From positions 1 to 57,886 of IMG/VR virus record IMGVR_UViG_3300045973_000815: a stretch of 57,886 nt of DNA; one strand, given 5' to 3'. The notes beneath the pieces were generated by a model that had not been told where the DNA came from, did no database searches, and saw nothing but the letters and a program-made list of their open reading frames with translations. Position numbers and translations under genes: made by a program. This document shows, in pieces, positions 1,621 through 24,737 of the stretch. Numbering within the stretch: the stretch's first letter is position 1; every line of letters begins with the position of its first letter. This DNA comes from a virus.

Positions 1621-1772
1621 GGCTTCACCCCGATGTCGATGGCCATGACAGCGTCACGCACGGCTCGCGCGAACGCCTCCGCCCGGTCCGCGAGGACTGC
1701 CAGCTTCAGTGACGGGTCACCGCCTGCCTTCAGCGTGCGCGCCGCTGCGTTCTGGTACTCGATGAGCGTCAT
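1617..1772 (-). CDS. Small helical protein (51 aa)
   Basis: An ATG at 1772 overlaps the stop of the ParB-like gene (ATGA), and the stop at 1617 overlaps the next GTG start. The product begins [14 protein letters not shown] and is predicted to be a helical pair (AVLADRAEAFARAVRDA). The start of this protein resembles the short N-terminal motif of phage nucleotide pyrophosphohydrolase-like proteins, but it is far too short to be an enzyme. The perfect two-sided overlap is the main evidence that it is real. Confidence 0.65.
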   Translation of the reverse strand: MTLIEYQNAAARTLKAGGDPSLKLAVLADRAEAFARAVRDAVMAIDIGVKP

Positions 1773-3445
1773 TCATTCGCCTCCTTCGGCTTCTCCAGCT
1801 TCGCCTTCACCATCTGCTCGAGGTCCAGGCCGCACACCTTGGCCACCTCGGAGGCCTCCTCTTCGAATCCGCTCCACGTCGAGCCGACCAACTGGGGCAG
1901 CAGGTTGCAGACGAGGAAGCCCAGCAACTCCTCCTTCGCCGCAGTGCCAATCCACGTCTCGACGTCCACGCCATCGTCGATGCGCAGGCTGGAGCGGTAC
2001 ACGTCCTCAAGCCCAGCCGCACGGTCCGCAGCGCGCGCGAGGATGCGCGCCCACGTCACCGTCAGGCCCTCCTTCTTCGCGCGCCCGGCAGCTGCGCGCA
2101 CCAAGTCGCCAACCACTTCGTCACGCAACTGGCGCGCATCGGTGGCGTCCTTCTGCGCGACAGGGTCCGACGTGACGGCCTTCCTGTCCCGCTTCTCGAT
2201 GGCGCTGGTGGCCCACTTCAGGTCCAGGTGCTTCGCGATGGCGTCCAGCGCGTCGCGCTCGACGTACATCTTCCGCATGCCCATCGCGGTGTCAGGCGCC
2301 ACGAAGAGCTTCGGGCGATCCTCGTCAGGCACCTTCTCCAGCAGTTGCACCCACGTACGCTTGCTCTTGTCCTCGGGCGCTGGAACATCGGCCTCGACGT
2401 ACTTGCTGCCGTAGGACAACTCGTTCCCGTGCTTGAAGAGCTTCTTGCCCGCGTCGATGGTGAGGGCCTCGGCACCCTTGGACTCTGCCTTCGTCGCCTT
2501 CTCCTCCCACGTCGCGCGCGCCTTCTGCGCGAAGCACGTCGTGTCCGTGCACCAGTCGCTGCCCGACAAGTCGTCGAAGAGGCCAGGCGTTGAGCCACTG
2601 CGCTTCGGGCAGACGGTGCATGCCCCAACGTCGGGCACCAGCATGTCGTCCTTGCGGTCGAATGGCGCGCCCTTCAGCGAGACGCAGTGCGCCTTCTGCA
2701 GGTGCTCCAGCGCGTCCCGCACGGGCATGTCGAGGATGGACTCGAGCGCCTTCGCCTGGTCCTTGTGCGAAGGCACGCGCGCCAATGCCACGGCCAGCGT
2801 CGTGGACAGGGCCCCAGTGTCGAGCGCCTTTCGTCCCTCGGCACAGAGACTGCGCAACTTCAGTCTCGAGTACACCCACGCGCGTGACTTGCCCGCCTTC
2901 GCGGCCACCTGGTCAGCGGTGTAGCCAGCCGTCTGCATCAGGGCGTCGTACCCGTCAGCCTCCTCGAGCGGCGTGAGGTCGCTGCGCTGGATGTTCTCCA
3001 CCAGCTGCACCTCAAGCACCTGCACGTCGGTGAGGTCGCGCACGTCGACAGGCACCTCCAGCAGCCCCGCCAACTTCGCGGCGCGCAGGCGTCGGTTGCC
3101 AGCCACTACCTCGTGCACCACCTTCTTGCCGTCGCTGATGGGCCGCACCAGCAGGGGCACCAGCACGCCGACTTTCTCCAGGCTGGCGGCCAACTCGTCG
3201 ATGCCGTGGAACGTCTTGCGCGGGTTGGTGTCGCTCTCGCGGAGTTCCTCAACGGCCATCGTCGCGTACGTCGACGACACCATGAATGGCTCGTTGAAGT
3301 GCTCGTCAGCCTTCGCCTTGTCTGCGCTCGTCGGGAGCCCAGCGGCCAACGCCACCGCGTCCACCAACGAGGTGATGGGCGCCGCGTCCAGTTGCACCAC
3401 GGGCTCTGCAGGTACGTCGATGAACCTTCGCTTCTTCGCGGCCAT
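1769..3445 (-). CDS. ParB/RepB/Spo0J-domain protein, large
   Basis: 558 residues. A ParB N-terminal (CTPase-type) domain spans about residues 60-165, with SDTNPRK (71-77), [15 protein letters not shown] (114-128) and [14 protein letters not shown] (150-163), followed by a helix-turn-helix at about 172-200. A long C-terminal part contains CTVCP and DWCTDTTCF cysteine clusters that could bind zinc. The AGNRRLRA motif corresponds to the CTP/phosphate-contacting GxRR box of ParB proteins. ParB proteins spread from palindromic parS sites; phage versions of this size without a ParA partner usually have unknown roles. No ParA gene was found in this window. It sits between a small gene and the Bet-type annealing protein in the early operon. 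Confidence 0.85.
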
Positions 3446-3446
3446 G

Positions 3447-3653
3447 TCAGGCCTCCTTCGCGCGACGGAAGGTGTCCTGGGTGGACGACGCCCACCAGAT
3501 CGTCAGCGGCTGTCGCACTGAGTACTTCCGCTTGGTGCTGTGTCCCTCGTTGATGAAGGTCGACAGCGGGCTGATGGCCTTCGGCATCTTTCCCATCCAG
3601 ACGCGCGCGTGCGCCCACTGCTTCCCCGTCCGATTCTTCGACTTGTTGCCCAT
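3447..3653 (-). CDS. Small basic protein of unknown function
   Basis: 68 residues starting [13 protein letters not shown], rich in lysine, arginine and tryptophan, with no Cys motif. It ends 1 base before the ParB-like gene start, so the two are coupled. No family is recognised. Confidence 0.6.
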
Positions 3654-3686
3654 GGTGCGACTCCTTCAGGATGCGAGAAAAACGAC

Positions 3687-3733
3687 CCGGCTGGTGCGCG
3701 CTCAACCGTCACGCAGATGCACGCACCAGCCGG
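3687..3733. promoter_or_regulatory. 12-bp inverted repeat in intergenic leader
   Basis: CCGGCTGGTGCG at 3687-3698 is repeated as its exact complement at 3722-3733 around a 23-base loop. It lies in the 113-base gap between two leftward genes, with no T-run after it. It could be an attenuator, an mRNA processing or stability hairpin, or an operator. Confidence 0.5.
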
Positions 3734-3766
3734 TGCCCCGAGGGCCAATCCCCCAGGGCGACAAAC

Positions 3767-4096
3767 TCAGAATGGCAAGACCGACTCCGCAGCAGGCAGC
3801 GGCTTGAAGCCCAGCGGCTTCTCAGCGCGCGCGAGGTTCTGCTTCCATCGCTCGAGCGCGTCAGCCGCCAGCGTCAGCCCGCTGATTGCGCCACCACAGC
3901 CACCCGTCGCCATGTGCGCTGGGTTGTCGACGCGCGACACCAGCCAGGTGAAGAGCGGACCGTACGGGTCCAGCGTCACGCGCACGCCGAGGAAGAAGCC
4001 GTCCGTCGTCTTCGACCACAGGACGTGCTCGGTCGCCGACTTCTCCGTGTGCCTCCAGCCCCGGAAGCTCTCGATTCCGCAGAACGGGCAACTCAC
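3767..4096 (-). CDS. Zinc-ribbon-like small protein
   Basis: Start chosen at GTG 4096, which overlaps the annealing-protein stop by 4 bases. The 109-residue product begins with CPFCGIESFRGW, a typical zinc-ribbon half, and continues with an aromatic-rich beta region and a helix ending in LERWKQNLARAE. No second CxxC is present, only a GGCGG segment. No family is recognised. Confidence 0.65.
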   Translation of the reverse strand: MSCPFCGIESFRGWRHTEKSATEHVLWSKTTDGFFLGVRVTLDPYGPLFTWLVSRVDNPAHMATGGCGGAISGLTLAADALERWKQNLARAEKPLGFKPLPAAESVLPF

Positions 4097-5142
4097 GTCG
4101 CGCCACCAATCTCGTCCATGCGCTGCCCCTCCTCCGCGCGCAGCTCCGCGAGCCACGCGGCCACCTGGGCCTTGCTCTCTGCGGACGGCGTCTTCGCCAG
4201 GCCCGCCTCGTGCTCCGCGATGGACTCGGCCAACTCGACCGCGTCCAAGCCGCTGATGGGCTTGCCCTTGTTCTTCCCGCGCTGCACGCAGGAGAACGTC
4301 ACCTCGGCGTCGATCGGCTGCGTCTCGGTGATGGGAGCGGGCGCGGTCTCGGGCAGCGCTGCGGCCTTCGCGGGCGACGGCTTCGGGGCCACCTTCGCCT
4401 GGACCTTCGCCAGCACCGCATTCGTGCGCGACTGCACTGGCTCCGTCTTGGGGGCCTCATACTCCTCTTCCTCGTCGCGGCGCATTTCGGCTTCGACGTA
4501 GATGCCTCCGAGCAGGTTGGGGTACGCGCGGCGCGACTGATCGGCACGCGCGCACTTCCGCAGTTGGCCAGCGGGGTCCGTCGCCCAGAACTTCGTGACA
4601 CTGCCATCGCGCTTCTTGCCGATGCGGCTCTCCAGCGTCAGGTACGTGATTTCGATGACGCGCCCCTCACGCTTCGCATGTGCCCAGGCGCCGAGGATCT
4701 TCATCCCTCCCTTGGCGCGGTCGGTCGGATTCCACTTGTGGGTGACGGTGCCTGCGTCCTCGTCGACGTCGAAGACATCGCCCGCGTACACGACGCCCGA
4801 CTTCATCCCACGGTAGTCAGGCTCCGCGTCCATCCTCGCGGCCATCCCCTGCTCGGACGCCATCGGCTCGTGCTTCTTCGTATTCGTCTGCGCGTCCCAG
4901 CGCTCGATCAGGTAGCACTGCTTCGTGAACGGGTCCAAGCCGGTGCGCTTCGCCCACGCGAGGAAGAACTCGAACTCCGCCTGCGTCGCACTCGGCGGCG
5001 TCACGGCCTTGCGGGCGAGGGCCACGCGCTCCTCATCCCACGTCGGCGGGTTCCACCGCGAAGGCAGAGCGCCAGTGCGCGCGTGAACGAGGCTCACCAC
5101 CTGCGCATCGACCTGCTCCACCTGCTGCGTCTTCGCTTCCAT
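4093..5142 (-). CDS. bet: Bet/RecT-type single-strand annealing protein
   Basis: 349 residues from ATG 5142. FFLAWAKRTGLDPFTKQCY near residue 78 is the characteristic N-terminal core of the Bet/RecT superfamily (gLDPf-k-y motif). Downstream are WNPTDRAKGGMKILGAWA and the ATDPAGQLRKCARADQSRRAYP region that closes the annealing core; the C-terminal third is a Pro/Ala-rich linker. Start choice: GGGAG at 5148-5152 sits 5 bases before ATG 5142 in the context CCGGGAGACG, identical to the leader of the exonuclease gene, so this start is preferred to upstream GTG 5169. Together with the adjacent exonuclease it forms a two-component recombination pair like lambda Exo/Bet. Confidence 0.9.
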   Translation of the reverse strand: MEAKTQQVEQVDAQVVSLVHARTGALPSRWNPPTWDEERVALARKAVTPPSATQAEFEFFLAWAKRTGLDPFTKQCYLIERWDAQTNTKKHEPMASEQGMAARMDAEPDYRGMKSGVVYAGDVFDVDEDAGTVTHKWNPTDRAKGGMKILGAWAHAKREGRVIEITYLTLESRIGKKRDGSVTKFWATDPAGQLRKCARADQSRRAYPNLLGGIYVEAEMRRDEEEEYEAPKTEPVQSRTNAVLAKVQAKVAPKPSPAKAAALPETAPAPITETQPIDAEVTFSCVQRGKNKGKPISGLDAVELAESIAEHEAGLAKTPSAESKAQVAAWLAELRAEEGQRMDEIGGAT

Positions 5143-5165
5143 GTCGTCTCCCGGTTGGCTCTGCA

Positions 5166-6281
5166 TCACGGCACCATCACTTTCAGTTCCTCAACTTCGC
5201 CCACGCCTGCGTCACCTGAGGACAGCTCGAGGCGCTGCCTCACTGAGTCGAGTTCCGGCACGAGCTCGCCCGCGAAGTCCTTCGACCACCGAGGCGCAAG
5301 CTTCCAGAAGCCTGGCCGCTTCTCCCGCTGGTACTTCGCCACCCACTCACTGAGTTCAACCGGGTCGATGGCGGCCTTCGCCAGCGCCTCCCAGTCGGTG
5401 CCGACGCTGGGCTTCGTCCACACGCGGCTGATGCTGCCGACGCGCGTCGACGCCAGGCCCTTGTCCGCGCCGATGAGCGTGCGCAGTTGGTTGCCCATCA
5501 GCTTCAACTCGCCGTCCAACAGCTTCTCCACCAACTTCAGTCGGCCGTACTGCGCCATGAGCGCCTCGCGCGCATCGCCGTCAGCCACTGCCTGCACGAT
5601 GCCGTTGGTCGTCGGGAAGGCACGCGAGAGAAACTCCTTGTACCGCTCCGTCGCGTCCGGAGGCGGCGGCTGGCCAGTCACGACGTGGTCCCGCCAGAAT
5701 CGCTCGGCAATCTCCAGCAACCCGAGCCAGAGCTGCTCGTTGAACGGAACGGTGTAGACGCCGAATTCCTCTCGGTCGAACAGCACCGCGACGTCCGTCA
5801 GCTTCATGCCGACAACGCCCATCTGCCACTGGGTCTGCAGGAGGTAGTACTCAGGGACGGCGTCAGTTCCAGGCTCGCCCCACTCGTGACGCATGCGCCA
5901 CGACGAGGTCTTGATCTCCACGTTCCGCACGGCGCCCGCGCACTCCGCAGGGTCAGCGATCCACGCCTTGGTGTCGCGGCGCGACTCGAAAGCAATACGG
6001 TCGGGCGTCGCGAGTGCAAGCGATTGCACCGGGTGGCGCAGCGTGCGACTCCGCACCAGGTGCAGCCCCTCGTGGCGGCGCGCGTACAGCTTGGCCACTG
6101 GCTCCTCGAGCAGGTCGCCGAGTTCCGTCGCAAGGTTTCCCTCGCGAGGTACCTGCACGCCCATCTTCTCTTCCCAGATGGCGACAGGTGAGGACCAGCG
6201 CGACAGTCCCGCCAGCACTGCAATCTCTGACGCGGTGATGCCAGTGCGCCGTTGCTCCAGCTGCTCCTTCGACAAGCTCAT
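5166..6281 (-). CDS. YqaJ-type viral exonuclease (lambda Exo-like)
   Basis: 371 residues. Motifs in order: TGITASEIAVLAGL (residues 13-26) opening the YqaJ nuclease fold, an LxxGDLLEEPVAKLYA helix, ALATPDRIAF with the metal-binding Asp, VEIKTSSW with the Glu-x-Lys catalytic pair, and YYLLQTQWQM with the conserved Gln. This is the PD-(D/E)XK exonuclease that resects double-strand ends for the annealing protein encoded immediately downstream. The RBS GGGAG lies 8 bases before ATG 6281. One of the nine dispersed palindromes (6014-6029) lies inside the gene. Confidence 0.9.
   Translation of the reverse strand: MSLSKEQLEQRRTGITASEIAVLAGLSRWSSPVAIWEEKMGVQVPREGNLATELGDLLEEPVAKLYARRHEGLHLVRSRTLRHPVQSLALATPDRIAFESRRDTKAWIADPAECAGAVRNVEIKTSSWRMRHEWGEPGTDAVPEYYLLQTQWQMGVVGMKLTDVAVLFDREEFGVYTVPFNEQLWLGLLEIAERFWRDHVVTGQPPPPDATERYKEFLSRAFPTTNGIVQAVADGDAREALMAQYGRLKLVEKLLDGELKLMGNQLRTLIGADKGLASTRVGSISRVWTKPSVGTDWEALAKAAIDPVELSEWVAKYQREKRPGFWKLAPRWSKDFAGELVPELDSVRQRLELSSGDAGVGEVEELKVMVP
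6014..6029. promoter_or_regulatory. Dispersed 16-bp palindrome, site 1
   Basis: GTGCAAGCGATTGCAC, inside the exonuclease reading frame. It matches the consensus GTGCAANCGNTTGCAC seen at eight other places. Confidence 0.75.
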
Positions 6282-8106: not shown

Positions 8107-8352
8107 ATGTCCGCTGCACCGCTGAGAATGAACGACGCGAAGGTCCAGAAATTCCGCCAGGCCCTCGAGCAGCTGCCCGCCGAGGTCCTCAGCATCACCC
8201 ACGCGCTCGCGCAGGCAGCGTCTGAGCGGAATCTTGGAGGCGTCGCGCAGCCCTCTAAGCGAGTCTCCAAGCGCCTCCTGCGCGACTCCAAGCAGGACGC
8301 TGAGCGCGCCTTCGTCGGTGGCTTCTCGCGCGTCCTCGGGGGTGCCCTGTGA
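8107..8352 (+). CDS. Small helical protein
   Basis: 81 residues from ATG 8107, preceded by GGAGGCGAG. It is a Lys/Arg/Gln-rich helical protein (FRQALEQLPAEVLSITHALAQAA) with no cysteine. It overlaps the next gene by 4 bases. No family is recognised. Confidence 0.65.
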   Translation: MSAAPLRMNDAKVQKFRQALEQLPAEVLSITHALAQAASERNLGGVAQPSKRVSKRLLRDSKQDAERAFVGGFSRVLGGAL

Positions 8353-8705: not shown

Positions 8706-8993
8706 GTGGCTCACTGCTGCGTTGTCTGCGCGCGCGAAGGCGCGCTGCACCTACCCCTCTTTGGTGGAGCCGTTCTCGGCCCTGCCTGTGCCGACACCTG
8801 CCAAATGCTGGTCTGGGAATCCCACATGCTGACGAACGTGAAGCACGAACCCTACGAGCGCTCGGAGCTGTCGTGGCGCTGGCGTCGCCAGGTCGCCGCA
8901 GCCAATGGGCGCCCCTTCCTCGAGCCCGCGCCGAAGTCTCCCGGTGAAGTCGCCTGCCTGCGACTCCTGGCTGACCTCGGAGGTGGACGGTGA
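8706..8993 (+). CDS. Small zinc-finger-like protein
   Basis: 95 residues from GTG 8706. It begins HCCVVCAREGALHLPL and has a second pair CADTC near residue 30, the spacing of a treble-clef or zinc-ribbon finger. The rest is a basic tryptophan-rich helix. Its stop overlaps the initiator start. Confidence 0.6.
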   Translation: MAHCCVVCAREGALHLPLFGGAVLGPACADTCQMLVWESHMLTNVKHEPYERSELSWRWRRQVAAANGRPFLEPAPKSPGEVACLRLLADLGGGR

Positions 8994-9838
8994 GCGCGAA
9001 GTGGCTGCGCATCGAGACGGACTTCGTCGACCACCCCAAGGTCCTGCGGCTGGCCAGCGTCCTTCGCGACGACGAGGCGGCAGCAGGCTGGTACGTGATG
9101 CGGGCGTGGTCGTGGGTGTCCCGTTTTTGTCCCACGGGACAAGTGCGGGACATTGATGGGACAGCGTTGGAGTCGGCGTGCAAGTGGCGCGGACCCGCCG
9201 GTGAACTCATCGCTGGCTTCCTCGAGTCCGGGTGGTTCGACGAGTGGGACAAAGAGGGACAAAAGATGGGACTCGAGGCGCACGACTGGTCAGAGCACCA
9301 GGGGCGCGTGGCTTCCAAAGCCGCGAAAGAACGAGACAGGAAGCGCGCGTACCGCGCAAAACGGGCTGCTGAGGATGCCGAGAATGTCCCACGGGACAAT
9401 GACGGGACAAGCGGTGGGACAGATGCGGGACGTCCGGCCCAACGTGACGTGACGGGACGTGACGTGACGGGACGTATAAAAGACATACCTGTCGAGCAAA
9501 GCTCGACGCCCTCCCGGCAGGTTGAACTCCTCGATGAGAAGCAACTCTCGCTCGAGGACAACCTCACCGACGGCGAGTTCCAGGTCTTCGAGCACTGGCG
9601 CGTCACCTGCGCCCACCCCAAGGCGAAGCCCACCCCTGAGCGCAAGCGGTTGATCGCCAAGCAACTGAAGCTCTACACCATCGCGGATCTCCAGCGCGCC
9701 ATCGATGGCTGCGCCCGCAGCGCCTGGCACATGGGCGCCAACGACAAGCACCGGAAGTTCGACGACATCGAGTTGATCCTCCGTGACGCCCGACACATCG
9801 AGAGCTTCATGGCTGGCACCATGGAGAATGCCGCTTGA
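8990..9838 (+). CDS. Replication initiator (O-like), contains iterons
   Basis: 282 residues. The N-terminal part (about 1-110), starting KWLRIETDFVDHPKVLRLA, is the winged-helix region typical of phage replisome organisers. A hydrophilic linker at about 120-175 (DGTSGG, QRDVTGRDVTGR) is encoded by the GGGAC repeats. The C-terminal helical domain (about 185-275) resembles helicase-loader parts of phage initiators. The layout, with an initiator carrying its own origin repeats in a low-complexity linker and a helicase gene immediately after, is that of lambda O. It overlaps both neighbours by 4 bases. Confidence 0.8.
   Translation: MSAKWLRIETDFVDHPKVLRLASVLRDDEAAAGWYVMRAWSWVSRFCPTGQVRDIDGTALESACKWRGPAGELIAGFLESGWFDEWDKEGQKMGLEAHDWSEHQGRVASKAAKERDRKRAYRAKRAAEDAENVPRDNDGTSGGTDAGRPAQRDVTGRDVTGRIKDIPVEQSSTPSRQVELLDEKQLSLEDNLTDGEFQVFEHWRVTCAHPKAKPTPERKRLIAKQLKLYTIADLQRAIDGCARSAWHMGANDKHRKFDDIELILRDARHIESFMAGTMENAA
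9117..9474 (+). repeat. ori: GGGAC iteron array, putative replication origin
   Basis: GGGACA occurs at 9136, 9147, 9158, 9246, 9256, 9393, 9404 and 9416, with GGGACT at 9268 and GGGACG at 9427, 9454 and 9469. Many neighbours are 10-12 bp apart, about one helical turn. Inverted copies (TGTCCC at 9117, 9129 region and 9385) create the palindrome TTGTCCCACGGGACAA at 9127-9142 and a near copy at 9385-9400. A 15-bp tandem repeat occupies 9444-9473, followed by the A/T-rich GTATAAAAGACATA. Confidence 0.75.
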
Positions 9839-11187
9839 GCCTCGATCTTCAGGCCCTACGTGGGCTCATCGGTGCCGCTGAAGTCTCCGTCGAAGACGCC
9901 CGCGCCATCCTCGACGAGACGCAGGTGACGGTCGAGGACCTTGAGGGCGAGCAACTGCGCCCCCTCTGGGCCATCGTCGAGTCGCGCATTCGAAACCACC
10001 AGGGCATTGATCCGGTCGCCATCCGGCATGCGCTTCGTGCGCTGCCACCCAAAGCACTCGACTCATCGATGGAGGCCCTGCTGTCCCCCGAGTACGGAGT
10101 TGCCCGGGAGCGCCTGGCCCTTGTGCGCGACGGCGCCACCCGCCGACGGCTCATCGAGCAGCTGCGCGCCATCGCTGGCGCCGCGAAGTCTGGAAAGCCC
10201 CTGGCCGAGGTCGAGGCGATGCTTCGGCAGGCCCCCGACGCACTGCAGGGAATCCAGACACGTGTCAGGAACTGCCAGGGTGATCCTGTGGCGATGATGG
10301 ACCACCTGGAGGCCCGTTGGAGGGGGGATGGCCCCAAATCGCTCACCACGGGGCTGGGGGAGCTCGACGACGTGCTTGGCGGGCTCATCAACAACCTGAT
10401 CGTGATTGGTGCGCGCCCCGGGGTGGGCAAGTCGGCGATGGTGGCAGGCCTCGTCAACCAGTGGGTGCAGGCAGGCCAGAAGGTGGGCGTCCTCTGCTAC
10501 GAGGACGACGCGCGCGACATGCAGGCGCGCCTCGTGGCGTGCAAGGCGGGCGTCTCGGTGAAGCACTCCCGGGGTGACTTGCTGCCCAACGAGGAACAGC
10601 GCACCGCCATCAGCGACGCCTTCGCGTGGTGGCACAGGTTGGCCGGACAGGTCGAGGTCGACGACGCGCGCCCCGCCGGCAGCGTGACCGACGTGCTGGC
10701 GTCCATGCGCGCGATGGTGAAGCGCGGGTGTCGGGTCATCCTCCTCGACAACATGACGTGCGTCTCGCTGGCGCAAAGCCCGGAGCCAGAGCACCACCTC
10801 CGCATCGAGGCGGCGCTGCGGGACATCCGCAGCGAGGCCCAGCACCTGCGCGTGCCCGCAATCGTCATTGGGCACCTACGACGCGGCCAGGGGGACAGCG
10901 ACACGACGGCGCCGCGTCTCTCCGACTTCGCCGCTGCATCAGCGTGGGAGAACTACGCCCGCGTGGCGTTGGGCATGTGGCGCACCGCGTCGGGCGAAGT
11001 GCGGCTGCGCGTCCTCAAGCAGACCAACGGACCCAGCGGCCAGGACTTCGAGGTCGACATGGCGCAGGAGGCGGCAGTCGTCACGGGTACGCGCCTGATG
11101 ACGTCGGCACCGCCACCGGCGCGGGCATCAGGCACGAGGGCGTATAAGCGACGTTCAACCGCAGAGGAGGAAACACCCCATGAATGA
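9835..11187 (+). CDS. DnaB-type replicative helicase
   Basis: 450 residues from TTG 9835, whose TTGA overlaps the initiator stop. The N-terminal domain is helical. The RecA-like core has Walker A GARPGVGKSA at about residue 193, VLCYEDDARDMQARL (H1a/Walker-type strand and Glu), VILLDNMTCV (Walker B Asp), and VIGHLRRGQGD with the downstream Arg-rich region DnaB uses at subunit interfaces. It lacks a long DnaB N-terminal extension but is close to normal length. With the upstream initiator and origin it forms the replication module. Confidence 0.88.
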   Translation: MSLDLQALRGLIGAAEVSVEDARAILDETQVTVEDLEGEQLRPLWAIVESRIRNHQGIDPVAIRHALRALPPKALDSSMEALLSPEYGVARERLALVRDGATRRRLIEQLRAIAGAAKSGKPLAEVEAMLRQAPDALQGIQTRVRNCQGDPVAMMDHLEARWRGDGPKSLTTGLGELDDVLGGLINNLIVIGARPGVGKSAMVAGLVNQWVQAGQKVGVLCYEDDARDMQARLVACKAGVSVKHSRGDLLPNEEQRTAISDAFAWWHRLAGQVEVDDARPAGSVTDVLASMRAMVKRGCRVILLDNMTCVSLAQSPEPEHHLRIEAALRDIRSEAQHLRVPAIVIGHLRRGQGDSDTTAPRLSDFAAASAWENYARVALGMWRTASGEVRLRVLKQTNGPSGQDFEVDMAQEAAVVTGTRLMTSAPPPARASGTRAYKRRSTAEEETPHE

Positions 11188-11663: not shown

Positions 11664-12049
11664 ACGCCTTCTTGCAGAACGTCGACCGCCTGCGGCTCCT
11701 CGAGCATGAAGAGAACCTCGCGGCAAGGGCGGCTGCGGAGCCGCGCGCGTGGGCGGGACGCGGGACTCGTCGCGGGCGTTGCGAGTGTGGCAATCCGATG
11801 CAGCGAGGCCTGGGACAGTGCGCCAGCTGCGCCGCAATGCAGAAGACAACGGCGCGCCTCGCGAGTGGGCGAATCTCGTCGGCCACAGTGCTGGCGTGGG
11901 TGGTGTCGCGTGGCGGCAGGACGTGCAACGCGGACGTCGCCGAGCGTTTTGGGTTGGGGCTCAACGCCGCCAGTCAGGTGCTGAGCCGCATGGTCGAGGG
12001 TGGGAAGATGCGTCGTGTCTCCATTGGCGTCTACGAGGTCGAGTCATGA
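11660..12049 (+). CDS. Zinc-ribbon plus winged-helix protein
   Basis: 129 residues from GTG 11660. It contains RCECGNPM...QCASCAAM, a CxC/CxxC zinc ribbon at about residues 37-56, followed by a winged-helix-like segment (TVLAWVVSRGGRTCNADVAERFGLGLNAASQVLSRMVEGGKMRRV) typical of MarR- or BlaI-like folds. Probably a DNA-binding regulator; the target is unknown. Confidence 0.65.
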   Translation: MNAFLQNVDRLRLLEHEENLAARAAAEPRAWAGRGTRRGRCECGNPMQRGLGQCASCAAMQKTTARLASGRISSATVLAWVVSRGGRTCNADVAERFGLGLNAASQVLSRMVEGGKMRRVSIGVYEVES

Positions 12050-12345
12050 AGCGCTGGACGAAGTTCGAGGACGTGGTGCGGGCAGCGCAGGCGGCGACGC
12101 AGCGCGCCAGTATCCAGATGCCGCTGGTGGGTGCGCACGAGTTGCTCCAGGCCTTCTTCGATGACGTGCGCGCGCGCGTCATGGCGGGCGAGACGGTCAA
12201 CGTGCCTGGCTTCGGGTTGTTTCGCCCGGCATCACGCAAGGCGCGTCGGGTGAAGAACCCCCAGTCTGGAGAGTACATGCAGCTTCCCGCCATCCACACG
12301 ATGCGCCTGCAGCCCGCGAAGAAGGCGAAGGTGACCCGTGAGTGA
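12046..12345 (+). CDS. HU/IHF-family DNA-bending protein
   Basis: 99 residues from ATG 12046 (ATGA overlap). VNVPGFGLFRPASRKARRVKNPQSGEY (in two pieces: GFGLF, then RRVKNPQSGE) and a final LQPAKKAK match the HU/IHF core GFGxF...R...NPxTGE...P...K. The N-terminal dimer helices are somewhat longer than in HU. It could assist origin melting, integration or packaging, as IHF does for lambda. Confidence 0.85.
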   Translation: MKRWTKFEDVVRAAQAATQRASIQMPLVGAHELLQAFFDDVRARVMAGETVNVPGFGLFRPASRKARRVKNPQSGEYMQLPAIHTMRLQPAKKAKVTRE

Positions 12346-21907: not shown

Positions 21908-22462
21908 ATGCCTGCAGGACGACCACCGAAGTTGACGCCTCAACTCCAGAAGGCCTTTTGCGCGCAGCTGGTGAGCGGCTGCACGTACGAGACGGCCGCT
22001 GCCGCCATTGAGGTCAGCAAGAGCGCCATCACTCAGTGGATGGCCAAAGGACGCACGCAAGAGCGCGGAAAATATGCTGATTTTCTGCGCGCAGTCGAAA
22101 AGGCCCGTGCCGAAGTAGTTCAGCGGTTGCTGGCGCGCGCGCAGAAGCGAGTCATGTCGCGAAAGGAGGGCGGCATCGATGCAGACCCGCTGCCCTTGCT
22201 GGCCATCCTCGATCGCTCGTATGCCCCACAAGTTCGCATTCAGGTGGCGACGGAGTTGAGTGCGACGTTGGACCGACTGGAAGCGGAGTTCGCGAATGAG
22301 CCTGAGATCTACGAGCGCATCCTCGCCGCCATCGCTGAAGAGACTGGCCCGGGAGCGGTTGCGCCAGCGTCGCGAGCGCGCACTCACGAAGACGCTCGAG
22401 GTGGTGCGGCCGTGGGCGCCAGAGACGCCGTCGGAGCGACAGAGGACCTTCCTCAGCCTTGA
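21908..22462 (+). CDS. terS: Terminase small subunit
   Basis: 184 residues from ATG 21908, behind CGGAGGC. An N-terminal AGRPPKLTPQLQ segment leads to a helix-turn-helix (SGCTYETAAAAIEVSKSAITQWMAKG), then an oligomerisation helix (FLRAVEKARAEVVQRLLARAQK). This is the standard organisation of small terminases that recognise phage DNA and present it to the large subunit. The C-terminus overlaps the terL frame by 167 bases, so its exact end or the terL start may differ. Confidence 0.8.
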   Translation: MPAGRPPKLTPQLQKAFCAQLVSGCTYETAAAAIEVSKSAITQWMAKGRTQERGKYADFLRAVEKARAEVVQRLLARAQKRVMSRKEGGIDADPLPLLAILDRSYAPQVRIQVATELSATLDRLEAEFANEPEIYERILAAIAEETGPGAVAPASRARTHEDARGGAAVGARDAVGATEDLPQP

Positions 22463-24737
22463 CGCGGAGGAGGTCTTCTTCGGCGGCGCAGCTGGTGGCG
22501 GCAAGTCGAGCGCGCTGTTGCTGGCTGCACTGCAGTACGTCGACGTGCCTGGGTACAGCGCGGGCCTCTTCCGACTGACGAAGTCGGACATGCTGAAGCC
22601 CGACGCGATTCTGGCGCGAGCCAACGCGTGGTTCTCTGGGACGCGCGCGTGGTGGGACGCGGCAGAGCACGCGTGGAAGTTTCCGACAAAGGGCGCGCCT
22701 GCCACCATCCACTTTGGGTACGCCACGTCGCTGGCGGAAGTGACGAAGCGCTACCAGGGCGCGGCCTTCCAATTTTGCGTGGCTACTGGAACGCCGGTGT
22801 TGATGGCGGACAGGACGTGGAAGGCGATCGAGTCCATTGCAGTCGGAGAGTTCGTCTCGACTCTTGAAGGACCTCGACGAGTCCAGCAGTCCTATGCGCT
22901 TGGGGTGAAGCCCGTCGTGCGCGTCACGGGCCCAGTTGGGTCATCGACGGTGAGCGCATCGCACAGGCTTCTTTGTACGAGCGGTGACTGGGCGTCCCCT
23001 TTGGACCTGCGACCCATTGAATCGAGTTCCGCACGCAGCACTCATGAATCGCCCACGCACTCATGCCGAGTACCAGCCCAGATTCCTCCTGGGTCATCGA
23101 TGGGTCTGCCGCCAGTTGGCGAATCTTGGCGAGCACATCGGCCGGAACCTCAGCACCAGGACTGCGACGCTTCTTCAGCAGGTGCTCGAACCGATTCCGA
23201 AGCGTCATGTGGTGAACACCAAGAAACTTCGCTGCCTGAAGCGTGGTTCGCCCATCTAGAGCTCTTCGGACCTGCTCTTCGGTCAGCGGCACAGCGCAGT
23301 TGCGACGAGTATCATCGGCATGCTCTCGCCCGTGGTCCGATAGGGAAGCAAGCAACTCGAGATTCGCAGGGCGGTTGTTTCTGCGATTGCGGTTGCGGTG
23401 ATGAACTATCTCGTGAGGCTCCAGTAGCCGCCCAATCAAGCACTCCATCACCAGCCGATGTTGCTTCACGCCTCCCCATGCATTCGCCATCGGGTGATCC
23501 GGCGAGTACTCAATCACGTACCCGCCAGGGCCAATGCACGCCGATCCACCCCTACACGTCCAGGGAACTCCTGTGCTGCGAGGAGCACCACTCGCACGTC
23601 TGCGAAATGGTCCCAGCGGGTGAGGTGGAAGTCTTCGATCTACGGGTCGAAGGGGCGTCGCATTACGTGACATGGGGAGGGTTCATATCATCCAACTGTG
23701 GCATCGATGAGGTTGGCAGTTGGCAGGAGGCGCCCTACCGCTTCCTCTTCTCGCGACTGCGCCGGCCGCAGGGCATGCCCGTGCCGGTGCGCATGCGTTC
23801 CTCGGGCAACCCGGGCGGTGCAGGGCACCAGTGGGTGAAGCGGCGCTTCGTCGAGTACGCCAAACACGTCGATGCGGGTACGGACGCGCGCGAAGACATC
23901 AAGGCCGCACGTTTCCAGAGGCGGCCGCTACCGGAGCCACCAGTCTACGCTTCGGCGCCCTCGGCGGAGGCTGCAGACGCAGCGCGCTCCATCAACCGCG
24001 AGGCCCAACCCTCATACTTCGTCCCCAGCTTCAAGGAGGACAACGTCGGCCTCGACGTCGACGCGTACGCGATGCAGTTGGCGCGGCTGGACCCCGTCAC
24101 GCGCAAGCAGCTGGACGAAGGCGACTGGGACGCCGCGCACGGCGGCAACTACTTCCAGGCGGGGTGGTTCTCCAACTCCATCGTCGACGTGCCACCCACG
24201 GGGCTGCGCTGGGTGCGTAGCTGGGACTTCGCGGCGACTGAGGAGGAGCCAGGGAAGGACCCCGACTGGACGGTGGGCGCGAAGTGCGCGGTCGAGCGCC
24301 TGGCCGACGGAGAGAAGCGCTTCTGGGTTGCGGACATCGTGCGCTTCCGCAAGGAGCCCGGCGCCACGGAGCGCGAGGTGAAGACGACGGCCGTCCTCGA
24401 TGGGAAGCGCGTCACGGTGTTGATGGAGCAAGAGCCAGGCAGCGCGGGCAAGACGGTGGTGCACGGCATCAAGACGCGCGTCCTCTTCGGGTGGAGCGTG
24501 ACGGGCATGCGCAAGACGGGGCCAAAGGAGTCCTACTGGAAGCCCCTCGCGGCGCCGGCCGAGGCGGGCAACGTGTGCCTCGTGCGCGGGGCTTGGAATG
24601 AGGACTTCATTCGGGAACTGAAGGACCTCCCAGGGGCGCATGATGACCAGGCGGACGCCGTCGCGCAGGCCTTCGCGCACCTCACCGATGAGAAGGCGGC
24701 ACAAGTCGACCGACTGCGGGCGACAGCGAAACTCTGA
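22296..24737 (+). CDS. terL: Terminase large subunit, intein-interrupted
   Basis: 813-residue precursor from ATG 22296 (GTG 22400 is possible); 506 residues after splicing. The ATPase half has Walker A FFGGAAGGGKSSAL and, split by the intein, the Walker B/DE region FQF//CGIDEVGSW. The C-terminal RNase H-like nuclease has RSWDFAATEEEPG with the first catalytic Asp and AHDDQADAVAQAF near the end. The intein (22776-23696) must be removed to rebuild the ATPase site. The motor cuts and pumps DNA into the prohead. Confidence 0.93.
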   Translation: MSLRSTSASSPPSLKRLARERLRQRRERALTKTLEVVRPWAPETPSERQRTFLSLDAEEVFFGGAAGGGKSSALLLAALQYVDVPGYSAGLFRLTKSDMLKPDAILARANAWFSGTRAWWDAAEHAWKFPTKGAPATIHFGYATSLAEVTKRYQGAAFQFCVATGTPVLMADRTWKAIESIAVGEFVSTLEGPRRVQQSYALGVKPVVRVTGPVGSSTVSASHRLLCTSGDWASPLDLRPIESSSARSTHESPTHSCRVPAQIPPGSSMGLPPVGESWRAHRPEPQHQDCDASSAGARTDSEASCGEHQETSLPEAWFAHLELFGPALRSAAQRSCDEYHRHALARGPIGKQATRDSQGGCFCDCGCGDELSREAPVAAQSSTPSPADVASRLPMHSPSGDPASTQSRTRQGQCTPIHPYTSRELLCCEEHHSHVCEMVPAGEVEVFDLRVEGASHYVTWGGFISSNCGIDEVGSWQEAPYRFLFSRLRRPQGMPVPVRMRSSGNPGGAGHQWVKRRFVEYAKHVDAGTDAREDIKAARFQRRPLPEPPVYASAPSAEAADAARSINREAQPSYFVPSFKEDNVGLDVDAYAMQLARLDPVTRKQLDEGDWDAAHGGNYFQAGWFSNSIVDVPPTGLRWVRSWDFAATEEEPGKDPDWTVGAKCAVERLADGEKRFWVADIVRFRKEPGATEREVKTTAVLDGKRVTVLMEQEPGSAGKTVVHGIKTRVLFGWSVTGMRKTGPKESYWKPLAAPAEAGNVCLVRGAWNEDFIRELKDLPGAHDDQADAVAQAFAHLTDEKAAQVDRLRATAKL
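22776..23696 (+). mobile_element. Intein in terminase large subunit (307 aa)
   Basis: It begins with Cys1 in CVATGTPVLMADRTWKAI (block A), has VSASHRLLC (block B His) at about residue 65, and ends VFDLRVEGASHYV (block F) then GGFISSN followed by Cys+1 of the extein. The last residue is Asn as required, but the usual penultimate His is Ser. The insertion point is directly before the ATPase IDE motif. Between about 23000 and 23600 the sense translation is Ser/Arg/Pro-rich with no endonuclease motif, because an HNH gene occupies the other strand. Confidence 0.92.
22924..23673 (-). CDS. HNH homing endonuclease, antisense inside the intein
   Basis: 249 residues read opposite to terL. Conserved HNH core at about residues 55-115: SPDHPMAN, KQHRLVMECLIGRLL, EIVHHRNRNRRNNRPANLELL and DHGREHA, the H...HH...N pattern of bbalpha-metal nucleases. 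Two C-terminal helix-turn-helix segments follow (TLQAAKFLGVHHMTLRNRFEHLL and SGLVLGMSAWAIHECCVRNSIQW), typical DNA-recognition parts of homing enzymes. The start is uncertain: ATG 23673 has no ribosome site. The gene lies wholly within the intein. Confidence 0.85.
   Translation of the reverse strand: MSRNATPLRPVDRRLPPHPLGPFRRRASGAPRSTGVPWTCRGGSACIGPGGYVIEYSPDHPMANAWGGVKQHRLVMECLIGRLLEPHEIVHHRNRNRRNNRPANLELLASLSDHGREHADDTRRNCAVPLTEEQVRRALDGRTTLQAAKFLGVHHMTLRNRFEHLLKKRRSPGAEVPADVLAKIRQLAADPSMTQEESGLVLGMSAWAIHECCVRNSIQWVAGPKGTPSHRSYKEACAMRSPSMTQLGP

Follow-up and report, generated by a model that had tools for sequence, protein, structure and literature searches.

The stretch of DNA analysed here, called the window, is the whole of IMG/VR virus record IMGVR_UViG_3300045973_000815, a single virus record of 57,886 bases with a G+C (GC) content of 66%. 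Its source is a temperate phage. The window contains a replication initiator gene directly followed, on its 3' side, by the gene for a DnaB-like helicase, and inside the initiator gene lies an array of short repeats, or iterons, that is the predicted replication origin discussed below. The locus comprises the following features (coordinates in base pairs, bp):

8990..9838, plus strand: replication initiator gene, 282 amino acids, GTG start (PHROG 9474, E-value 2.6e-27)
9005..9283, plus strand: N-terminal winged-helix-like domain, residues 6-98 (AlphaFold2 pLDDT about 90)
9117..9163, both strands: iteron block 1, with TGTCCC at 9117 and 9128 and GGGACA at 9136, 9147 and 9158
9128..9141, in block 1: palindrome TGTCCCACGGGACA, copy 1
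9246..9272, plus strand: three intermediate GGGAC(A) sites, starting at 9246, 9256 and 9268
9287..9382, plus strand: long basic helix, residues 100-131 (AlphaFold2 model)
9338..9355, plus strand: helix motif RKRAYR (residues 117-122), which changes along with the iteron, the variable position being Lys118
9385..9432, both strands: iteron block 2, with TGTCCC at 9385, GGGACA at 9393, 9404 and 9416, and GGGACG at 9427
9385..9398, in block 2: palindrome TGTCCCACGGGACA, copy 2
9442..9471: 15-bp tandem repeat, two copies of ACGTGACGTGACGGG, carrying GGGAC at 9454 and 9469 (the latter ends at 9473)
about 9471..9504, directly 3' of the iterons: A/T-rich element, candidate unwinding site
9475..9838, plus strand: exchangeable C-terminal half, unrelated in the nearest homologue (L379) and resembling the C-terminus of other phage replication proteins
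9835..11187, plus strand: DnaB-like replicative helicase (Pfam DnaB_C, E-value 4.7e-23; PHROG 19, E-value 7.7e-37)

Within the 356 bp from 9118 to 9473, GGGAC or its complement GTCCC occurs 15 times, 12 times on the plus strand and three times on the minus strand, while no other 360-bp stretch of the window has more than four such sites. Eleven of the 15 extend to the hexamer GGGACA. A preliminary description of this DNA had counted at least twelve “GGGAC hexamers”; the abundance stands, but the name does not, as GGGAC is a pentamer and the hexamer is GGGACA. In gene coordinates the sites form a first block at nucleotides 127-173, a looser middle group at 256-283 and a second block at about 395-484, with successive spacings of 11, 7 (inverted), 11, 11, 88, 10, 12, 118, 7 (inverted), 11, 12, 11, 27 and 15 bp. 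The step inside the blocks is thus 11 bp (10-12), or about one helical turn, which agrees with the 10-12 bp phasing described earlier, and each block holds one inverted pair, TGTCCC-AC-GGGACA. The two palindromes, the tandem repeat and the A/T-rich element that had been described are likewise present at the positions listed, the last of these reaching 60% A+T over 30 bp, which puts it at the 99.8th percentile for this genome.

The codon frames of the 15 sites split 4/4/7, so that all three frames are used, on both strands, and the array is therefore not explained by a repeat in the protein. Its density was compared with 20,000 shuffles in which the protein sequence was held fixed and synonymous codons were permuted. 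GGGAC sites averaged 5.9 in the shuffled genes, and a fraction of 5e-5 of the shuffles reached 15; GGGACA hexamers averaged 2.6 and never exceeded 8, against the 11 observed.

The nearest homologue, the initiator of contig L379, is 56% identical and was found among the 26 stretches recovered by the palindrome scan described below. Its N-terminal half and both iteron blocks align with those of the window; immediately beyond block 2 the similarity ends, the remainder of the gene being unrelated. All sites of block 1 but the last are kept, as is the first of the three intermediate sites; block 2 is kept, and the ACGTGACGTGACGGG tandem repeat is nearly identical. Where the two proteins have identical residues, the codon is the same in 25 of 31 cases inside GGGAC sites and in 45 of 82 outside them (p 0.016). 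The array is conserved in L379 beyond what the protein needs. In place of the DnaB gene, L379 carries other genes, including one for a ParB-MT-A70 fusion. Since L379 shares the N-terminal half and the blocks but has an unrelated C-terminal half, the N-terminal part and the iterons form one module and the C-terminal part another, the same split as in lambdoid phages. The loss of GGGAC spacing from homologues that keep the linker had been named as the outcome that would speak against an origin; L379 keeps the spacing, and more distant homologues exchange the whole set of repeats.

The initiator matches further initiator PHROGs besides PHROG 9474, including a weak match of its C-terminal part only to the “O-like” PHROG 18020 (E-value 0.001). 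It has no match in Pfam at E≤1, neither to the lambda O family nor to DUF1376 (PF07120), although DUF1376 proteins elsewhere carry the same basic helix and iterons. The initiator-like head and flexible linker of the preliminary description find their counterparts in the modelled winged-helix head and in a disordered linker that the AlphaFold2 model places after helix 100-131 and that is coded by iteron block 2. The C-terminal part is poorly modelled. Foldseek and VIA returned only generic, weak winged-helix matches, a bZIP-like match not being specifically sought, and the Z scores of 4.6-5.0 between the N-terminal domain and plasmid initiator N-domains (RepA_N/DnaD-type) are equalled by unrelated winged helices. 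Used singly as protein queries against viral and genome contigs, neither the initiator nor the helicase gave any relatives, and a search of plasmids with the N-terminal domain gave no match; an alignment of distant initiator homologues was too divergent to serve as a query.

GGGACA arrays are found in other phages. Viral contigs were scanned for three GGGACA hexamers spaced 10-13 bp apart, yielding at least 120 stretches; two of the three DNA-only scans, this one included, are samples. Among the 120 stretches listed, 87 were multi-frame arrays, ranging in GC from 0.31 to 0.71, and some were protein repeats of the WDSV type in a single frame. Many of the 49 array-overlapping proteins among the matches listed match initiators, DnaD-like helicase loaders, and primosomal or primase families. 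The reversed hexamer, scanned as a control, gave 38 multi-frame arrays among 120 listed, and its families had few replication matches each. The palindrome signature TGTCCCACGGGACAN{4,6}GGGACA gave 26 stretches in viral contigs, mostly in initiators and with 8/11 spacing dominant. As judged from these sequences, GGGACA arrays occur in phage initiators of several families, and the window is not unique. The earlier impression that the sequence and density of the iterons were unlike anything recognised does not hold, for the same reason and because a similar-looking 11-bp repeat has been published for Salmonella phage L. No paper on GGGACA iterons was found in the open-access literature, although older work may exist.

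Two other groups of arrays came to light in these scans. Eight AT-rich viral contigs (L008, L015, L025, L028, L034, L037, L066 and L073) share a GGGACA array with the fixed spacing 9, 11, 11, 55, 9 that lies mostly outside long open reading frames (ORFs) and looks like a noncoding version of the array. In genome contigs (L251, L260, L265, L275, L284, L287, L319 and others) a conserved element, TGTCCC-NN-GGGACA-CTNNN-GGGACA-CT, has exactly three sites. It is often outside ORFs and occurs in Proteobacteria that are unrelated to one another; possibly the end of a transposon, it is separate from the phage arrays.

More distant homologues keep the layout and carry other repeats. Searches based on the protein alone found PHROG 9474 homologues in 37 of 195 Myxococcota genomes; as a rule these lack GGGACA and have other repeats right after the basic helix, namely GGACGTCC, GTACGT or GGAATTCC. 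In Pseudomonadota, a search with PHROG 2447 yielded a single locus. GTGAC/GTCAC repeats are present in Vibrio phage 1.211 and Paenibacillus phage Harrison. The arrays lie at gene nucleotides 151-227 and 335-377 in Vibrio 1.211 (GTGAC) and at 148-178 and 367-408 in Rac YdaU of E. coli 442/2 (GTAACG), and the two-block layout is seen in ctnlZ23 and TL-2011b as well. That the positions of the arrays are roughly kept while the repeat changes fits an origin.

The repeat changes together with the basic helix. In GGGACA initiators the motif [RK]Kxx[YWQ]R stands near the array, most often 20-90 bp upstream; it was found near 29 of 119 GGGACA arrays, 2 of 106 GTAACG arrays and 0 of 49 control arrays, whereas its counterpart R[VLI]R.. 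was found near 0 of 119 GGGACA arrays and 9 of 106 GTAACG arrays. Proteins were then dereplicated at 45% identity and anchored on the helix in a way that ignores the tested position. At that position Lys is present in 10 of 11 GGGACA proteins, compared with Gln, Val or Met in 26 of 29 GTAACG proteins (Lys in 0 of 29), with a p of 4e-9 that is optimistic, since the anchor and the residue grouping were picked with the sequences already in view and any relatedness under 45% remains. Under single-linkage clustering, 114 proteins, with both types of repeat among them, fell into one superfamily, a level at which the test has no power. L431 (Bacillota) and L462 (Pseudomonadota) differ in their N-terminal domains and have in common the helix ERVR[RK][YH]R and near-identical GTAACG arrays. 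Two further codes were rejected: RKSR for GTGAC, which is broken by L442, and RARRWR for a separate AACGAATG class, as the repeat of L429 contains GTAACG. In the DUF1376 proteins L394 and L395, an AT-hook-like KKGGRP segment is followed by TAACCA or AACCCA repeats, perhaps another pairing of reader and repeat.

Among described systems, the closest in unit size is gene 18 of Salmonella phage L, with six imprecise 11-bp repeats, TGTCCAACGGA, inside a P22-like initiator gene (PMC8022706). As in the window, the repeats are a proposed origin and form a module with a gene for a DnaB-type helicase; the repeat sequence differs, and the likeness is to the published description. The lambda gene O origin and the O genes of Stx phages (PMC7466680) are also inside the initiator gene, between the regions coding for its two halves, and combine repeats with an A/T-rich element; lambda, too, has a gene for helicase recruitment downstream. 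The resemblance to lambda drawn in the preliminary description is apt in that the initiator gene, internal iterons, adjoining A/T-rich stretch and downstream helicase gene are all present. However, lambda has four inverted-repeat iterons of ~19-20 bp in one block, whereas the window has ~11-bp units, direct with inverted pairs, in two blocks.

The Rac prophage, for which an active origin, oriJ, has been stated (PMC3945230), provides a further parallel. YdaU of E. coli 442/2 (MN652886) has a homologous N-terminal domain (27% identity, pairwise E-value 2e-11) and two similarly placed arrays, but its repeat is GTAACG, its helix is RVTKIR and the next gene encodes the DnaC-like YdaV rather than DnaB. 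The YdaU of E. coli MG1655 is different again: it is a DUF1376-type protein, and in its gene (L601:5620-6477) a basic segment is followed by TGTTCAAAC repeats in direct and inverted orientation, a candidate array embedded in a gene of a laboratory strain. RepA of PLE satellites shows swapping of modules, with a conserved C-terminal domain and an N-terminal DNA-binding domain that co-varies with the iterons (PMC8263062). The window differs from PLE in that its origin would be embedded in the gene, and in repeat pattern and helix.

The region 9117-9504 is thus most probably a bipartite origin of 11-bp iterons embedded in its own initiator gene, of the same kind as in lambda O, P22 18 and L 18. 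The initiator would bind GGGACA half-sites about 11 bp, or one helical turn, apart in two blocks, the first within the region that encodes the N-terminal domain and the second within the one that encodes the linker. The protein-DNA complex would then open the A/T-rich stretch beside block 2, with the initiator's C-terminal half recruiting the DnaB-like helicase, the product of the adjacent gene. Binding, unwinding and helicase loading are all steps that we infer. The basic helix (residues 100-131, with RKRAYR) is a good hypothesis for the reader of the iteron, although its chance of being right is put at slightly less than even. Tentatively, a short basic helix and the array it reads, coded directly downstream, may form a detachable cassette common to otherwise different initiator families, in which one position (Lys versus Gln, Val or Met) sets GGGACA versus GTAACG.

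Several points weigh against this interpretation. The A/T-rich element is only modest. The cumulative GC skew has its minimum at 8337, which proves little, as the coding direction flips there too. DnaD-like initiators of the MSGTVNIS type (L014, L057, L067, L072 and L086) have GGGACA arrays without an RKxx[YWQ]R helix. There are also exceptions to the residue rule: Gln in L604 and L611 with GTGACG and GTAGAC-type repeats, Val in L451 and L452 with no clear array, and L442 (RKSR) with a GAACGAG repeat. A DNA-blind check agrees with the association between helix and repeat, but on a small set.

The most serious alternative accepts the origin but has GGGACA read by the winged-helix domain or a host protein, with the basic helix adding only general DNA affinity. 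This would account for the MSGTVNIS-type initiators, which are unrelated to that of the window and have GGGACA at conserved gene positions, phased by 11 bp with 22- and 66-bp steps, and it would fit lambda O, which is known to bind through its N-terminal domain. It does not readily explain why, among initiators with differing N-terminal domains, the presence of Lys as against Gln, Val or Met at one position of the helix follows the repeat. Overall, its likelihood is appreciable, if somewhat below one half.

Alternatively, the sites could be operators through which the operon's transcription is regulated by its own initiator or by a repressor, with replication starting elsewhere. Intragenic repeats can serve as operators and initiators often repress themselves, but an operator would not need as many as 11-15 sites, arranged in two blocks that lie downstream of the start codon; moreover, the set travels with the N-terminal half and adjoins the helicase gene, and homologues keep the positions with a different repeat. 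We consider this improbable as the sole function, although operators could coexist with an origin. Still less probable, and indeed very unlikely, is a partition centromere for the ParB-like protein encoded at 1769-3445. TGTCCCACGGGACA looks like a small parS-like palindrome, but the GGGACA arrays of other phages sit in replication initiators (ParB genes beside them were not sought), and the repeat co-varies with the initiator helix. The idea that a low-complexity linker in the protein gave rise to the repeats as a by-product, as the single-frame WDSV-type matches might suggest, is refuted for the window gene by the three codon frames, the two strands, the inverted pairs and the failure of synonymous shuffles to reproduce the array.

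Other genes of the window include that of the ParB-like protein (ParB_N and HTH_ParB domains), which is on the minus strand, as are those for RecT (4093-5169) and a RecE/YqaJ-type exonuclease (5166-6281), opposite the replication module; this RecE/RecT-plus-initiator setting (1769-6281 region) resembles Rac. A protein encoded at 11749-12345 on the plus strand has a 128-residue N-terminal extension in front of an HU-type DNA-binding domain (residues 129-194). The large terminase (825 amino acids, 22260-24737, plus strand) probably contains an intein: it is ~300 residues longer than PHROG 979 and matches Hom_end_hint at residues 173-223 with an E-value of 5e-4, below the cut-off.

A joint change of specificity in an initiator and its gene-embedded origin has so far been visible in only a few lambdoid phages. 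Here, the 11-bp layout recurs in phages of 31-71% GC, and the repeat and one helix residue change in step, so that origin specificity would be predictable from the protein sequence and testable by one point mutation. The approach offers a way of finding origins in thousands of uncultured phages, and many phage replication proteins termed “hypothetical” have odd GT/GQ/RD linkers that would be explained as DNA signals read through three frames. If true, this would be the start of a recognition code by which initiator and origin can switch specificity together.
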